Assembly: GCA_947034885.2 (NCBI GenBank)
Contig: OX344749.2
Coordinates: 52,853,682-52,917,681, forward strand
Direction of reading: 5' to 3'
Origin: Thuidium tamariscinum
Taxonomy: Eukaryota > Streptophyta > Bryopsida > Hypnales > Thuidiaceae
Length of the DNA stretch: 64,000 nt
Every line of letters starts with the position of its first letter. Within the stretch, counting starts at the first letter, position 1. This document shows positions 4,919-59,700 of the stretch, in pieces. A model generated the notes under the pieces. It searched no databases. It saw nothing but the letters and a program-made list of their open reading frames with translations, and was not told the DNA's origin. A program made the translations under genes and the position numbers.

Positions 4919-5684
4919 CTTCTACAAAGAAGATGATAACAATCAAGGCAACTAAAAAAAATTCCCGAATGTTGTTCCCTATAGAGAGCGTTTTTATCTA
5001 CATGGAAATATTTCATTCATTCAATTTGGAATAGTAACGAAAAAGTATAGACAATTTTGTTTTGGAAGCAATCTAAACATTTTTTTGGAAAAAACACTTA
5101 ATGGATTGATATTTTTAATATAATTTTTACATTTTATGAAAGAAAGATTTTGACAAAGTTCAATTCACTTTCTAGAAGAACCTCACCAGTGAAATTATTA
5201 TGTTTCAATTGAATCTTAGACCTACCAATGATTTAGTTCTTCCTCCTATCTCATTCTTGCTTCCACTCAACAACTTTTTAAAGAATGAAAATCAATTGAG
5301 TGTTGTTGAATTTTTTTCCTAAACTTCTAATTGAATAATTCAAAATAATTTTCTTCAATTCAATAATGGTAGTACTCAAATTTTAAGCTACGAAGAATCA
5401 AAGCTTTAAAATCTAGTCAATCAAGGTGCAGAAACAAAGTGGAAATATCTTTAAATCCATGAAGTCAAAAATTTTGAATTTTTTTTGTACATTCTTATAT
5501 TAATCTATCAAAAATGTGCAAGATATAAAGACAATTAGATATACAAAAAAAGAATTTCTAAGTTTCTTCACACTTTACAATAGAAATGGACATTTTGATT
5601 CAATTTTGATGAAAAAGATCTAGGTGCTATTGGTATTGGTACTAGAAATGGTAGTTTTTGACCATTTTTGGAGTAAACATAATT

Positions 5685-13132: not shown

Positions 13133-13705
13133 GTTCGTCTTTCTTCACTGTCTTATCTTTCACAAGTTTTAGAGGATGAGGTTCATCTTTTAGGTTTCTA
13201 GCGACGGTCTTCTGGCAATGTGAGCTGTTTCTAGACTCAGAAGCAATGTTCGAGTCATTCGCATCGCTGACGCTGTGGTGACTTGTGTCGTCAAACCCTA
13301 GAAATGGCCGTGATCTAGGACTGCAACGAATTTTCTGGTTTGTTTCGTGCTCTGTCGATGTCGTTGTCGCTTCTGTTGCGTATCCTTTGGAATTGCACGT
13401 TAGTTTAGAGCCCGTTGAGGAATAGTTGGAGATTCTGGAAGATCAAAGTAATTTCAGTACTGACGATAGTATAGCCTGCTTTGTTAGGAACTGATTATCT
13501 ATGTTTCGGATTGCTCCATTAATCTATCCTCGGACTTTGTGCAGATTTGGTGTCGGTGAAAAGCAGTGGGTTGATTCTCATGTAGAGAAGGCTGAACTAG
13601 AAGCTAATTACCATCAAGATATATCCCATCCAAAAGGCTTTCCTGAGCGGTCTGTGAATCTGTGTCGTTTCTGTCAATTAGTCGAGCTCTAAAGGTTGAG
13701 TCACA

Positions 13706-15199
13706 ATGACGGTGCTTGGTTGCAAGTGGCATCCAAGCGCCGACAACGTCGGCGTATGCGCACACTGTCTCCGCGAGTCCCTTTCCCGGCTCGCAGTCTA
13801 CCAAGATGAAGAGGACGACTCCATCGATCTGGAGATTTTCCCCCCGAGCATGCCATCATCCAGCATGCCCGCAGGCTCCCAAAGAGCGCAGTTCATCCTC
13901 GTCCAATACGACGGAGACGGGAGCAACCGTGGAGGCGCACTAGCAGGCAATAATTCGGATTTGTTCTTCCCGGGAGTGAACAGGAAAACCATGGGCGCTG
14001 TAGTCAATCCGCAACAGAAACCCTACATCCCGAATGAGCCCACCGACCTGAACCTTGATGGTGCCGACATGCAGGGGGAGGTCAGCACATCCGAAGACAG
14101 CGGTTCTGGAGGGCAAGACGAAGGGGCTGCTCAACATCACGCGCCTCCTGGAGTAGTAGAATCGAACCGCAACAAGAGGAAACTTCAATCCTCAAGTGGC
14201 AGACGTAAACCCAAGTCATGGGGATCAGCCATGACGAAAATGGTTGGGTTTCGAACCCTGAGCGTGCTTTGGAAATCAAAGAAGAAAACGGAAGCAAGCT
14301 CATCGAGAACAAAGCTTGAGGACTCTGGAGCCGCTGCTCATGATCAGATGTTTACGCCAGCTCGATTTTCAGTATCATCTACTCTTGAGCAGACTACACC
14401 GCATCGGTTCTCGGTTTCATCGCAATGGGAGCAAACCACCCCTTCGAGATACAAAGACCAAGTCACCCCTGCTAGATATTCAGGCGCATCTCTCTTCGAC
14501 ATAGAATCTATGGATTCCCGAAGATCGTCCACCAGCAGCCGTGGCAGCCCCTTCACTAGGCATGTGGTCAACGGTGAAAACTTCAGTGCTGCCTGGAGGG
14601 CAAGCAAATCTGACGCGCATGGTAGGAAGATGGGAGTGTATGAGGAAGGCAAAGGATATGATCAGTACTCTCTTGGGAAGTCTCCTATGAAGTCTCCCAT
14701 GAAGTCTCCATGGAAGTGGTTTGCTTCCTTCAAGTCGGCGGCTACCAATCCTAAGGAGGATAAAAGGCGGAAGGCTGTTGCGGAGGTAGTTCCGGCTGCT
14801 CCTGTCAGTCCATATCAGGAAAGGAGGAAATCAACGTCTTCAGTGCCCGTGAACAAGTCAAGGGAGAATCGACCTCCGCAACCGCTAACTCCAGTGCTGA
14901 CTTCGAAGAAAAGCGCATGGTGGAAATCCTCTCCCATCCCTAGAACCCCGAAGAAGAGTCCTCTCACGGTTTCTATTAAAGCCAAGGACGTGGAAGTGGC
15001 TACTGATTCTCAGGACGATACTCCTCATAGGCTCTCTTCTGCTAGCCCCATGGTGGGCTACTCACGGTCGAGTAGCAATGGAAGCTCCTGCTTCACCACT
15101 CCACGGTGGAACAACCGAACCGGACGGCCGCAGCATGGGAACCTCCGGGGTTTGGCAGTTCATGAGAGGGAGCATGAGATCTCCCACCTGGCAATCTAG
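13706..15199 (+). CDS. OCTOPUS / DUF740-like protein, 497 aa, single exon
   Basis: The start at 13706 opens a 497-residue frame. Residues 6-29 hold C-x2-HP...GVC-x2-CLRESLSRL, the Cys/His pattern found at the N-terminus of plant OCTOPUS-related (DUF740/UPF0503) proteins, with C6, H9, C18 and C21 as possible metal ligands. The rest is low-complexity and Ser/Pro/Lys-rich: a QTTP-type repeat near residues 215-255, a KSPMKSPMKSPWKWF repeat near 326-340, and many SP/TP sites suited to kinases. No membrane segment is visible. Family members known from angiosperms sit at the plasma membrane and affect vascular patterning; a moss protein need not do this. The leader appears to contain introns (acceptor near 13543). 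The family assignment rests mainly on the N-terminal motif. Confidence 0.85.
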   Translation: MTVLGCKWHPSADNVGVCAHCLRESLSRLAVYQDEEDDSIDLEIFPPSMPSSSMPAGSQRAQFILVQYDGDGSNRGGALAGNNSDLFFPGVNRKTMGAVVNPQQKPYIPNEPTDLNLDGADMQGEVSTSEDSGSGGQDEGAAQHHAPPGVVESNRNKRKLQSSSGRRKPKSWGSAMTKMVGFRTLSVLWKSKKKTEASSSRTKLEDSGAAAHDQMFTPARFSVSSTLEQTTPHRFSVSSQWEQTTPSRYKDQVTPARYSGASLFDIESMDSRRSSTSSRGSPFTRHVVNGENFSAAWRASKSDAHGRKMGVYEEGKGYDQYSLGKSPMKSPMKSPWKWFASFKSAATNPKEDKRRKAVAEVVPAAPVSPYQERRKSTSSVPVNKSRENRPPQPLTPVLTSKKSAWWKSSPIPRTPKKSPLTVSIKAKDVEVATDSQDDTPHRLSSASPMVGYSRSSSNGSSCFTTPRWNNRTGRPQHGNLRGLAVHEREHEISHLAI

Positions 15200-52587: not shown

Positions 52588-53667
52588 GGGTGAATGCAAG
52601 AAACACTTGTACTATTTGTTGCGTTTCGTCACACCCTATTTTTTTCTTTTTCTTTTAGCCATAACTTTTATGTTTTAGCTCCAAATGACTCAAAATTTAT
52701 ATGGAAGCTACTCATGGCTATTATGTATCTAAAATGAATTTTGGAGATTTTTCAAAAATAATTTATTGTTTTTAAATAGCCCCAAAAATTTCTCACAGTA
52801 CTCAATTTAAGGATTTTTAGCACCCCATTTCTCCAAAAAAACGAATTTTGACCTAAAATTTGGAGAGCATGGTCTCCTAGTAGACTTTTACCTACTATCG
52901 AAAGGAATTCTAAAAATACTTGTTTTTAAATGTCGTAGAAGTCCACAAAGAGAGCTTCACTCTGCATTTTTTTCCAAAGGTATAAAACATTATTTTGGTG
53001 AGTTTTTTGTCAAATCTCATCACCAAAAAGTTTTTTCAAGTTTTTTATTTTTATTTATATTTCAAAAAAATAATACTGTTTTTAACAAATAAAAATGTTA
53101 CAAGTTGTATTTTCTTCACCGGAACTTTGGACATAGAATTCCGGTGAAAAAAATACAACTTGTGACATTTTAATTTGTTAAAAATAATATTATTTTTTTG
53201 AAAAATACATAAAAATGAAAAACTTGAAAAAACTTTTTGTTGATGAGATTTGACCAAAAAACTCACCAAAATAATGTTTTATACCTTTGGAAAAAAATGC
53301 AGAGTGAAGCTCTCTTTGAGGACTTCTACAACACTTAAAAATAAGTATTTTTATAATTCCTTTGGATAGTAGGTATAAGTCTACTAGGAGACCATGCTCT
53401 CCAAATTTTAGGTCAAAATTCGTTTTTTTGGAGAAATGGGGTGCTAAAAACCCTTAAATTGAATACTGTGAGAAATTTTTGGGGCTATTTAAAAATAATA
53501 AATTATTTTTAAAAAATATCCAAATTTCATTCTAGATACATAATAGCCATGAGTATCTTTCCTATAAATTTTGAGTCATTTGGAGCTAAAACACAAAAGT
53601 TATGGCTAAAAGAAAAAGAAAAAAGTAGGGTGTGACAAAAGGCTTTAAGTGTTTCTTGCATTCACCC
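52588..53667. mobile_element. 1,080-bp foldback element (near-perfect palindrome)
   Basis: The ends are GGGTGAATGCAAGAAACACT and its inverse. The two arms, 52588-53124 (537 bp) and 53139-53667 (529 bp), are reverse complements along their whole length with few differences. They are separated by a 14-nt spacer and closed by TTCACCGGAA/TTCCGGTGAA. TAAT flanks both ends but may be chance. Each arm corresponds to the left part of the element at 43933. It is non-coding; a transcript would fold into a long double-stranded RNA. Confidence 0.9.
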
Positions 53668-54960: not shown

Positions 54961-57462
54961 TCACCAGTAATCTTTACAAGAACACAGACCATCTTTGAAG
55001 TGATGGAATCGATTCGCATCCCTAACTACAATCTCTCTTCTAGTCACCTTGGAGATAAATTTTGTTGCCGTATGACAGTCTGAACACACCCGGAGGTTCT
55101 TGTAAACACGAATTATTTGACTACTAGGTACGCAAATATGTCCATATGCAATAGCCAACTTCTCGCTATGAGAGCACAGAACAAATTCTTTATCCTTCTC
55201 GTCAATATTACGCAACACGAGCTGGGTATCAGGAAGGTAACCTTGCTCCTTGATTTTTTCAGTTAATCTGCTCAACTCAGCATATATCTCCTTCTCTTCT
55301 GGGTGAGATGTATCCCCTACAACGAACTCATGGATCTTGTTGTCAACTGCAATCCAGCTACGCCCTGGTTCCTTGCGTATACCTCTCTCCTGCATCATAG
55401 TGCGCATTAAAGACACCTCCTCCCACTTGCCAGCTGCAGCATAGATGTTGGAGAGGAGCACATACGTCGAGGCCTGCATGGGTTTCAACTTTATCAGCTC
55501 TTTCGCTGCAAGCTCACCCAACTTCACGTTACCATAGGTTCGACAAGCACCAAGCAAAGCTCCCCAAGTTGCTTCATCTGGTTCCAGTGGCATATTACCG
55601 ATGAAGAGCTTGGCTTCCTCCAAATGCCCTGCTCGCGCAAGAAGATCCACCATGCAGGAATAATGAACGACATCAGGTTCAGTGCCATAATCTTGCGCCA
55701 TAAGCAAAAATAATGTGCGGCCCTCATCAACAAGGCCTGCGTGACTACAGGCCGATAACACTGCTGCAAGTGAAAGAGCATCAGGTTTGACACCATCTGC
55801 ATTCATTTTCCTGAAGACCTCTAGAGCTTCATACCCACGTCCATGTTGTGCAAGTCCACCAATCAACGCTGTCCATGAGAATACATCCCGTTCCTCCATG
55901 CTGTCAAAAACTAGTCGGGCGTCATCAATGCTGCCACTCTTGGCATACATGTGAACAAGCGCATTGCCCAAACGCAAATCCGACGCAAGTCCTCCTTCCA
56001 GAACATGGCTGTGAACCTGCTTCACCCACTTCAAAGACCCTACGCTTGAGCACGCATTCAGGATGCTTGTATAAGTGAATGCATCTGGTTTGAATCCTTC
56101 CTGCTTCATCTGGAGAAGAAGACGATACGCTTCCTCACCACAACCACTTTCTGCATATGCGCCAATCATCGCAGTCCATGTGATTACATCGCGTTCCTTC
56201 ATCCTGTCAAAGACTAGTCGGGCATCATCAATACGTCCACTCTTTGCATATGCGCGGATCATCACAGTCCCAGCAATTACATCACGTTCCTTCATCCTGT
56301 CAAAAACCTGTTGCGCATCATCAATACTGCCACTCCTTGCATACATCTGCACGAGCGCGCTGCTCACACGCAAGTCCGACTCAAGACCCGCTTCCAAGAC
56401 ATGGCTATGAACGTCCTTCACCCATTGCAAAGCCCCCGTACTTGCAGATGCATTCAAGATGCTCAGAAAAGTGATTGCATCTGGCTTGAAGCCCTCCTGT
56501 TTCATTTGGAGAAACAATCGATATGCTTCCTCACCGCAACCACTATCTGCATATGCGCCAATCAGCACAGTCCACGTGAATACATCGTGTTCCTTCATCC
56601 TGTCAAAAATTTGTTGCGCATCATTAATACTGCCACTCTTCGCATATTTGTGTACGAGTGCACTGCTCACACGCAAGTCGAACTCAAACCCCGCTTCCAG
56701 GACATAGCTATGAACCTCCTTCACCCACTCCAAAGCATTTGCACCTGTAGGTGCATTCAGGATGCCCAGAAAAGTGATTGTATCTGGTTTAAAGCCTAAT
56801 TGTTTCATTTGGAGAAACAGCCGATATGCTTCCTCACCACAACCACTATCTGCATACGCTTTGATCATCACATTCCAGGAAATCACATTGCGACTTGTTA
56901 ACTTATCAAAAGTTTTCCTTGCCTCCTTTATGCACCCACACTTTGCATACATCTGAACAAGCGCAGTCCCTACACGCACACCTGACTCGAGGCCACCACG
57001 TCTGATACACTCATGAACCTCTTTGCCCCATTTCAGAGTTGATGGGCTGCCACATGCCTTCAGGATGCTCACATATGAAACCTCGTCTGGCTGGGCCCCT
57101 TCTTGGCGCATTTCATTGAAAAGTTCCATTGCATCTTTACCGAGGTTGTGCTGAGCATAACCTCCAATCATAACGTTCCAACTAATAACATCCTTCTTCA
57201 CAAGTTCATCAAATACTCTTCGGGCATCCGGCAATCTACCGCATCTGCTATACACCATCAATAGGTTGTTCGCCACATATAGATTTTGGTCCATTTTGCT
57301 CCGCACAATGTAGTCATGAACTTGCTTGGCTGCAATAAGGTCTTTCTGCTTCAAGCACCGCTTTAGAACTTCAACGTACATGTATGAGTCTACAAAAATG
57401 CCTTGTTGTAGACGATTCTTCAAAACAACAAGTGCTTCACTTGTGGTTCTTGCACTTTGCAT
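54961..57462 (-). CDS. PLS-class PPR-DYW protein (organellar C-to-U RNA editing factor), 833 aa
   Basis: A single open frame encodes about 18 PPR motifs (residues about 28-635) in P-L-S order, then E1/E2 motifs and a DYW cytidine deaminase domain. The domain shows HSEKLAIAYG (zinc ligand and catalytic Glu), CSDCHTATKF, and the terminal HHFKDGLCSCKDYW. Such proteins bind single-stranded organellar RNA and deaminate one C to U; the signature is the C-to-U type. Three P-L-S triplets are near copies of each other (ADSGCGEEAYRLFLQMKQ), and one extra S-like motif (DVIAGTVMIRAYAKSG..) breaks the triplet rhythm. No clear targeting peptide follows the ATG at 57462. The frame is open 17 codons further upstream to an acceptor (AG at 57515-57516), so the true N-terminus may come from an upstream exon. 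Wording resembles moss PPR-DYW proteins. Confidence 0.95.
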   Translation of the reverse strand: MQSARTTSEALVVLKNRLQQGIFVDSYMYVEVLKRCLKQKDLIAAKQVHDYIVRSKMDQNLYVANNLLMVYSRCGRLPDARRVFDELVKKDVISWNVMIGGYAQHNLGKDAMELFNEMRQEGAQPDEVSYVSILKACGSPSTLKWGKEVHECIRRGGLESGVRVGTALVQMYAKCGCIKEARKTFDKLTSRNVISWNVMIKAYADSGCGEEAYRLFLQMKQLGFKPDTITFLGILNAPTGANALEWVKEVHSYVLEAGFEFDLRVSSALVHKYAKSGSINDAQQIFDRMKEHDVFTWTVLIGAYADSGCGEEAYRLFLQMKQEGFKPDAITFLSILNASASTGALQWVKDVHSHVLEAGLESDLRVSSALVQMYARSGSIDDAQQVFDRMKERDVIAGTVMIRAYAKSGRIDDARLVFDRMKERDVITWTAMIGAYAESGCGEEAYRLLLQMKQEGFKPDAFTYTSILNACSSVGSLKWVKQVHSHVLEGGLASDLRLGNALVHMYAKSGSIDDARLVFDSMEERDVFSWTALIGGLAQHGRGYEALEVFRKMNADGVKPDALSLAAVLSACSHAGLVDEGRTLFLLMAQDYGTEPDVVHYSCMVDLLARAGHLEEAKLFIGNMPLEPDEATWGALLGACRTYGNVKLGELAAKELIKLKPMQASTYVLLSNIYAAAGKWEEVSLMRTMMQERGIRKEPGRSWIAVDNKIHEFVVGDTSHPEEKEIYAELSRLTEKIKEQGYLPDTQLVLRNIDEKDKEFVLCSHSEKLAIAYGHICVPSSQIIRVYKNLRVCSDCHTATKFISKVTRREIVVRDANRFHHFKDGLCSCKDYW

Positions 57463-57957
57463 GTGTATGTTGCCACTGCCACCCTGTCCAATTCGTACAT
57501 TGCCTTTGGGTAACCTGAGTCATTAACACATTTTTATAAGAAAAACCTTCATAAAGTAGAAAACTTTAATCAGATATTTCAATGTACACATAGTTACTTG
57601 GATGCATCGCTGCAATCCATCTGAGAAAGTCATCACAGTGTAGTGCACCTAATAAACACTTAAACAGTGAATATCATGAAAAAAAGAGAAGTGCATGTTG
57701 CTTTGAAAACCAATTCCTCTAAGTGGCTCAAATCACAAAATTCAAGCTGCAACTACATTGATAAAATAAATCGGCAAAGCACAGTGCTTGTGTGGGTCGA
57801 ACTGCACGAAAGGAATTCCTAACATGACCTACTCCAAAACCAGGAGACAAAGGGTAACTAAGAAAAGATTTGCAGATAATGGAGTTGGTACCTGCGAGCT
57901 TAATCGTCCGCTTGCATGATGCGAACCGCAAACATGGGTAATGGATTGTACACTCAC

Positions 57958-58521
57958 CGTGCATTAGGTTGCTCAGCACCATTTGTAACCAGGACAAGAT
58001 CACCTGCCACAGGAGGTGGCCTCCCCACCACTTTGTCCACGGCACCACAGTACACCATGGGATTGCCGGTCCGGAACAACTGTGTCTTCCCTTTCTTCGG
58101 AGCCACTCTGGCCACGTCTGCGAAACGATTCTGCCAATTCAACAAAACTTCCACTTCACCTCAAACCCTAATTCTTGAACCCTAAACCCTAAACCTTAGG
58201 CATGCTCTTGAACTTTTGAGAGCTCTCACCCAAGTTATCAGAAGGATATCCAGTGGCAATGATTCCAGAGAATCACATATTCTAAGGGAGAAAACATGGG
58301 CCTCATATTTTGAGGTTTAAGAACATACTGGAACGGTCTTTCGCAGTATGCCCACCGACAGGCTTTTGCATCTCCTTGACATGTACGTCGACAACCTTGA
58401 CTGGAGATGCATGCGTCCGAGGGAGTCGAGTGTGGGGACTGCTCCGGGTTCTGCTCATTCGGGGGCTCTGAAATAGGGATGTTTCCGGCACTTGAATTTC
58501 TGGCCATTGCATAGCACCCAT
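57958..58521 (-). CDS. Two exons with an RlmI-type PUA domain; 5' part of a broken or fused gene
   Basis: Exon 1, 58521-58329, begins with ATG preceded by an in-frame TGA and encodes 64 basic, Ser/Pro-rich residues, possibly a targeting peptide. Exon 2, 58117-57958, encodes VARVAPKKGKTQLF, GNPMVYCGAV, VVGRPPPVAGDLVLV and GAEQPNA. These match the N-terminal PUA domain of RlmI-like 23S rRNA methyltransferases, including their plant relatives. Exon 2 ends with CG before a strong donor (GTGAGT), in the position where the family continues with R-G. The SAM-binding domain that should follow is absent downstream on this strand. The next in-phase acceptor is the one in front of the PPR frame. Either the gene was truncated, or it is the 5' end of a PUA-PPR fusion. 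Confidence 0.75.
58164..58197 (-). promoter_or_regulatory. Telo-box cluster (AAACCCTA)
   Basis: The plus strand reads AAACCCTAA, then GAACCCTAAACCCTAAACC. These are short plant telomere-type repeats, known as telo-boxes in promoters of translation-related genes. They lie in intron 1 of the PUA gene just upstream of exon 2, or near an internal start site. Confidence 0.55.
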
Positions 58522-59700
58522 TGTGCAATTTGCTCAACAAAGAAAGAATGAAAACCCAATGCAAAGACTGCCGGAAAATATAAGCCAAGCATACGAAAGA
58601 AGAAGAGTGCGTAAACCTGTCCATGTCGAAAGCATGGGATACTCAAAGCAGGACGCGTACAGTTAAGCAAGCGATCCTTCAGGGACAACATCGTTCTTCC
58701 CAAGAATTGAAATTGATACTGCAATCACAAAATATTGCAAGAATTCTCATCAATTAAAACTTAAGGCCTAGAAGGCCCAAAACGATCAACTAGAACGAAG
58801 AAACCATGCCCTACAATTTTGATAATTTTGGAAGTTAATATAATTGAACATGAGCTTTAAACTTTCTGTTCAAGCAACAAGTGGCTAAACCAATGCCTCA
58901 AAAAGCTCCTAATCCACCCAAAAAACACAATTCAGACAAAAATTACACAACCCGAGTGAAGCTCGAGTTTGAGGTACGTAGACTGCTGTGAACCCAGTAG
59001 CAAGAAAGATAATCGATGAGAATTTCAGACTTTGGGGTAAAAGTTCGGAATCAGTGTCAGAGAACCCTAAGCATACACTACCAGTTTCTAACTTTACGTC
59101 TCACAAGCATGCCCCTCACGGCCCACACAGGCAAGCTCTGTCTTGTGTGTTAAGAGAATTGCCTTAACAAAGTGAGAAATGCATGCTGCACCCCTGTTGC
59201 AGCAGCTGACATTTGTGTACAGGAAGCCCTCTCATATCGTCCTGCAACCTGAAAGTCGAACAAGAAAGTCCTCTAACTTGACCAACAATGAAACGCGATG
59301 TAGAAACTCTTCCTGTAAACTACCGGCGATGAGCACACTGAGAATAACAGATGCTCAACTGTTGCCCTATTTCTGCCGAGGCAAACTTCAATCGTCAAGG
59401 CTTTGAAGATGTCCCTTTAAACCATTTCCTAAACATGTATAAATTCTAAGTTTCTCCACATGCGCTGCACCCTGAGCAAACGAAGTCCATCACTTCGTAA
59501 ATTTGTATAGCCTCCTCAAGCTTTTCAAACGAAGGCCTGCAATTGCTAAGAGCATCCCCACGGCTTGACTCAGAATTGGACTCAGTATCAGGCCCTCTTC
59601 AACTGTGGCCGGCCAAGTGTGATAATGATCTACCCCACCACTGAACAGTGGAGGCAACCCTGTAAAAGGGACAAACATTTTTACCAAGGATTTTAATTCA
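58522..59700 (-). promoter_or_regulatory. Upstream region of the PUA gene
   Basis: GC content is moderately raised, consistent with promoter and 5' leader on the minus strand. No further coding exon was recognised. A GAGCATCCCCACGG word at about 59548 resembles some MITE ends but no partner was found. Confidence 0.4.

Follow-up and report, generated by a model that had tools for sequence, protein, structure and literature searches.

Chimeric anatomy of a moss PPR-DYW locus behind the copied front of an RlmI-like gene

The window analyzed here is a stretch of 64,000 nucleotides (nt) from the moss Thuidium tamariscinum (contig OX344749.2, hereafter C1; C1:52853682-52917681), whose minus strand carries a pentatricopeptide repeat (PPR) gene of the DYW type with the copied front of an RlmI-like gene in place of its native 5′ exons. 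The anatomy of this swap, the intron phases on its two sides and the copies of its parts elsewhere in the genome are directly visible in the assembly. We therefore favor, with some reserve, the reading that exchange of a 5′ end created a chimeric nuclear gene here, in which the PPR-DYW part is kept by selection and probably acts in editing behind an RlmI-derived leader. Here, within clear boundaries, a nuclear gene encoding an organelle-type RNA protein has lost its native front and gained that of another gene, and both kinds of source still exist in the genome.

Anatomy and phases of the 5′-end swap

An earlier note on this DNA had drawn a single reading frame over three minus-strand pieces, 58521-58329 (193 nt), 58117-57958 (160 nt) and 57514-54961 (2554 nt). 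This frame holds: counting the terminal stop, the spliced pieces give 969 codons that no other stop interrupts, and GT stands directly after exon 1 (GTATGT) and exon 2 (GTGAGT), AG directly before exons 2 and 3. One open frame over all three pieces is also what a PUA-PPR fusion would call for. A DNA search of the genome (363 Mb in 19 contigs) with window positions 57463-59600 returned 19 matches, namely the query itself, one long match on contig C2, four beside other PPR genes and, from a repeat, 13 short stretches about 50 bases long. The long match, C2:7468689-7469868 on the minus strand, aligns with window 58955-57769 at 84% identity (1007/1197). In the C2 gene, exon frames are open for both the PUA and the SAM-methyltransferase parts; joined by eye, they score 45.1 bits for PUA_3 and 55.8 bits for Methyltrans_SAM, and over the exons covered, up to the last and with approximate borders, the gene looks full-length. 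It thus holds the remaining kinds of RlmI-like exon that the earlier note proposed to look for elsewhere in the genome. A search with the PUA exon, at E values up to 1, found two places only, C2 and the window, the window copy bearing one TGA and one TAA.

On the minus strand, the copy comprises the upstream, promoter-side flank of the RlmI-like gene (58692-58955; 45/262 sites differ from the C2 gene), exon 1 (58329-58691), intron 1 (58118-58328; 36/207), the portion of the PUA-encoding exon 2 that is kept in the fused frame (57958-58117), the remainder of ancestral exon 2 (57892-57957) and the 5′ part of intron 2 (57769-57891; 19/123), which begins with the old donor GTACCA in phase 2. Homology to C2 stops at 57769, and the fit to PPR paralogues starts at 57753 by BLAST and at about 57767 by eye, the seam lying at 57767-57769. 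Downstream of it, 57515-57768 (minus strand) is the 3′ portion of the last 5′ intron native to the PPR gene, in which the roughly 250 bases 5′ of the PPR acceptor resemble the introns of other PPR genes and not the C2 gene, with 66–73% identity to those of loci L030-L032 and shorter matching pieces in L033.

Twelve PPR loci of the genome were compared, four reached through DNA matches to the window's upstream part and eight selected by open-frame length from 150 scored PPR matches, a non-random sample. The acceptor TCAG/G and the coding start that follows it are common to 11 of the 12 (L030-L033 and L039-L045), which bears out the acceptor (57515) and the 17-codon extension proposed by the earlier note; the corresponding exon start of the window, 5′ of an internal ATG, occupies 57463-57514 on the minus strand. 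The same 11 loci have, further upstream, an exon reading WEEYF...WWD and a PDF-like exon, a conserved arrangement of interest in itself, and a leader-like first exon in sense orientation was seen in six of the 12. Locus L046 has neither the shared exon start nor the upstream exons and resembles another PPR gene. Native upstream exons of this kind were not found in the window, where the best E values were 0.10 for the PDF-like, 0.49 for the WWDN and 0.046 for the leader exon, with scattered and short matches. The name "PDF-like" is a tentative one for a pattern that resembles the PDF motif of OSB proteins; the exons had no match in Pfam. A PDF motif is known in the organellar single-stranded-DNA-binding OSB proteins (PMC6963530, PMC4166229), and in the portions of the literature covered by our search it was not tied to PPR editing proteins, the co-mention there concerning mitochondrial RNA polymerases. 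The nearest paralogue seen, L030, is about 80% identical to the window gene over 679 bases at the 5′ end (BLAST).

Some of these loci have peculiarities of their own. L033 has, near its position 5271 (region of C8:21231215), a stop and a frame shift ahead of the DYW domain and is pseudogene-like, and the leader-like exon of L032 (5891-5968) is antisense to the PPR gene, which suggests a second, divergent copy or an inversion. Across the genome, open frames with PPR matches recur, among other lengths, at 736, 837, 938, 1039, 1140, 1241, 1342, 1443 and 1544 codons, in steps of 101 codons, as if whole P-L-S triplets had been gained or lost.

In the C2 gene, exons 1 and 2 (borders set by us) amount to 584 coding nt with a remainder of 2, and the donor of intron 2 is in phase 2; the acceptor of the PPR family is likewise in phase 2 and is conserved. 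The chimera was therefore in frame when it formed, and the phase match, which the earlier note had weighed as a one-in-three accident of the present donor, predates that donor. Exon shuffling can give rise to chimeric genes when the introns involved share a phase. The locus resembles such cases in that its seam joins a phase-2 donor to a phase-2 acceptor and kept the frame from the outset, but differs in that the incoming domain has since decayed and only its position at the front may matter. We read the history from the sequence as the exchange of a 5′ end through partial duplication, and not as the fusion of an intact domain or the breakage of an RlmI gene. The 1.19-kb front of the RlmI-like gene (promoter side, exon 1, intron 1, exon 2 and the start of intron 2) would have been duplicated, and this copy would have replaced the native leader-like and PDF-like 5′ exons of the PPR-DYW gene, so that the seam came to lie between two phase-2 introns.

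The earlier note had also considered that an RlmI-like gene was interrupted by insertion of a PPR gene, in line with the position of the RlmI exons on the upstream side of the PPR gene. This alternative has next to no probability: the window holds only the 1.19-kb 5′ copy, with no 3′ RlmI exons found in it, the full-length-looking gene lies on C2, and one neighboring window gene has no second copy that we found. Beyond the 1.19-kb copy, moreover, 24.9 kb of C2 (7458001-7482900) gave only repeat-like matches to the window among those listed, their status as repeats being our judgment. Five exon peptides of the C2 gene, run by tblastn against both strands of the 64 kb, revealed no SAM-domain exon (best E 0.096; positive control with PUA, 7e-37), which agrees with the earlier statement that this strand has no SAM-binding domain and extends it to the other. 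Whole-genome duplication as the source of the RlmI copy was rejected on the same comparison with C2 and on the lack of a found second copy of the neighboring gene at 13700-15199. An assembly artefact uniting two loci is very improbable as well; nothing positive speaks for it, and the RlmI part differs from the C2 gene by 16% and has mutations of its own, and therefore does not represent a misplaced fragment of it.

The PUA exon and its splice donor

As drawn by the earlier note, the PUA piece scores 16.8 bits over model positions 4-44 of 64, below the Pfam cut-off of 22.6, and had no match in NCBIfam or the PDB. The homology runs past GTGAGT: with X at both stops, PUA_3 scores 28.0 instead of 19.3 bits and is covered at positions 4-62 instead of 4-45 of 64. 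Immediately 3′ of GTGAGT, the PUA frame reads stop-VYNPLPMFAVRIMQADD-stop, the two stops being TGA at 57956-57954, which makes GTGAGT, and TAA at 57902-57900, where the C2 gene has GAG. Since PUA homology continues beyond it, the donor lies inside an exon. At this place, the C2 gene reads GCA TGG GGA GTG and the window GCA CGG TGA GTG, and the single change of GGA to TGA creates both the stop and the GT of GTGAGT. What the earlier note took for a native exon end is thus a derived donor. The replacement of W by R beside it may be tolerable, E. coli RlmI reading ARGAY at the same place. The new donor (intron from 57957) agrees with the splice consensus at 7/9 positions and the old one (intron from 57891) at 6/9, the C2 gene having no GT at the exact place of the new donor; the two lie 66 nt apart and are therefore of equal phase.

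A working PUA domain is unlikely, because it breaks off near model position 45 of 64. Judged by sequence profile, the locus does not have the complete PUA fold of a PUA-PPR fusion, nor the complete PUA_3 in an open frame that an RlmI-type methyltransferase would have, since positions 4-45 of 64 are followed by TGA; no exon for the SAM methyltransferase domain of the latter was found in the 64 kb. Of the fusion put forward earlier, what stands is that exons of RlmI origin are in frame with PPR-DYW, whereas the native donor and the PUA RNA-binding domain as the present N-terminus are not supported, the exons encoding a partial domain.

The copy has partly decayed. Exon 1 differs from the C2 gene at 19/161 and 32/193 sites and has gaps of +1 near 58599, +9 near 58532 and −5 near 58490, with its ancestral ATG at 58691 frame-shifted; exon 2 differs at 12/160 sites before the new donor and 7/66 after it, and nine gaps were counted over the copy. 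This pattern of divergence fits a relaxed copy compared with a constrained gene. With equal rates assumed, a hand calculation that halves the Jukes-Cantor distance of the non-coding parts (100/592 sites) puts the divergence on the window side at about 0.095 per site. After the swap, the PUA exon would have decayed, and one mutation would have produced both the stop and the stronger donor upstream of the old one; splicing from this donor, if it is used, would keep the frame open.

Selection on the PPR part and translation of the fused frame

The PPR exon encodes a PLS/E/E+/DYW protein, whose open frame from the internal ATG (54961-57462, minus strand) spans 833 codons. PPR_2 matches it at 1.2e-102 in 11 stretches, with PLS triplets assigned by eye, and DYW_deaminase at 2e-40 over 93/93 positions (54964-55242, minus strand; residues 741-833). 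The protein has the tandem PLS-type PPR motifs, E, E+ and complete DYW domain with HxE (HSE) and CxxC (CSDC) that mark a DYW-type editing factor.

For the branch analysis, L030 was assumed as sister from BLAST identity, and L031 or L032 served as outgroup. On the window branch, the 300 C-terminal codons show 0.051 or 0.049 nonsynonymous (dN) and 0.31 or 0.28 synonymous (dS) substitutions per site, depending on the outgroup, with a bootstrap range for dN of 0.034-0.074; the first pair gives a dN/dS of 0.17. The neutral expectation for dN since the copy arose is about 0.095. Under the assumed sister relation, these estimates show that the C-terminal PPR-DYW part is under purifying selection. In neutral simulations with 0.095 changes and 0.005 gaps per site (our settings), the PPR frame was retained in 0/3000 runs at the copy's age and in 8/3000 at about a third of that age, which supports the PPR part having been functional after the swap, provided that the seam and the copy share one age. 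The PPR-DYW part would thus be held by purifying selection and probably still performs C-to-U editing of an organelle transcript, with the import signal then having to come from the RlmI-derived leader.

Two points weigh against this argument. It presumes a seam as old as the RlmI copy; and for the N-terminal 150 PPR codons, the window-branch dN is 0.067 with a bootstrap range of 0.029-0.109, which includes 0.095. Were the seam young, the PPR part could have come recently behind an old, decayed RlmI fragment and the locus be dead and unexpressed, as the decay of the 5′ part, a seam that cannot itself be dated and the few frames surviving at a third of the copy's age would allow. We regard this as improbable, as the PPR-DYW frame is open over more than 850 codons, its C-terminal part has a low dN/dS on the window branch, and the nearest relative seen, L030, is about 80% identical.

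Whether the fused frame yields a joined protein is a separate question, on which we lean, by a small margin, toward a negative answer. Translation is suggested by the open frame, by the better match of the new donor to the consensus and by the native leader exon not having been found. Four ATGs are in frame with the fusion (58521, 58512, 58458 and 58371); the N-terminus from 58458 (MSRTRSSPHTRLPRTHASPVK...) resembles an import peptide by eye, and the RlmI-derived N-terminus is, also by eye, rich in Arg and Ser. Translation began ancestrally not at 58521 but at the ATG at 58691, from which the frame now meets a stop after 78 codons. Several observations count against a joined protein. Seven ATGs between 58955 and 58521 lead elsewhere, 58691 among them, and the one at 58624 has a good context and opens 137 codons in the spliced frame. 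The tail of exon 1 is unconstrained (dN 0.243, dS 0.248), and exon 2 before the donor (dN 0.053, dS 0.131) is compatible with one relaxed copy. Furthermore, neutral decay leaves the fused frame, with at least 100 codons before the seam, open in 10.8% of 20000 runs (10.0% through the old donor and 0.9% through a new strong donor), and the open frame alone therefore proves little.

These observations also bear on a rival in which the RlmI copy serves as an untranslated leader or promoter and protein synthesis begins either at 57462, the internal ATG, or in an upstream exon that escaped notice. The decay of exons 1 and 2 and the several upstream ATGs agree with it, as does an ATG at the position of 57462 in three of four aligned paralogues. 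The native genes, however, have leader-like and PDF-like exons, a start at 57462 leaves no such leader, and the window yielded no native exon; we consider this rival rather unlikely, though it is the most serious one. A functional chimeric editing factor, in which the swap brought promoter, leader and PUA exons, the stop-turned-donor mutation rescued the frame and the remnant of PUA forms the N-terminus, is a tentative proposal that we hold somewhat less likely than not.

Relation to known systems and neighboring repeats

Like the moss PLS-class DYW-type PPR editing factors described in PMC9459714 (Physcomitrium PpPPR_56, _65, _71, _77, _78, _79 and others), the window gene has a PPR array, E, E+ and DYW with HxE and CxxC, but its native 5′ exons are replaced by the front of another gene. 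The Physcomitrium table of that paper, up to PpPPR_81, gives no additional domain for its eight DYW members, and our literature search found no paper joining PPR, DYW and a PUA domain, for Physcomitrium or otherwise. With the RlmI-type (YccW) rRNA methyltransferases of PUA and SAM parts, such as E. coli rlmI and the C2 gene, the window shares exons 1 and 2 and about two thirds of PUA_3, and it differs from them in that no methyltransferase exons were found, the PUA exon has two stops and exon 1 is shifted. Should the joined protein be made, a single step could give an editing factor a different leader and promoter and perhaps another organelle, and a mutation to a stop codon could have a rescuing effect through the splice donor that it creates.

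Just 5′ of the chimeric gene, at window 59545-59596, lies the terminal part of a short dispersed repeat (..GGTGGGGATGCTCTTA), with similar ends aligned at 13 other places. A candidate coding gene at 59600-59450 was rejected, as it contains this repeat end, aligned at 14 places in all. On the other side of the gene, a large inverted repeat at 52621-53643 has 389-nt arms that are 95% complementary, and the 245 nt between them contain a second inverted repeat with 122-nt arms.

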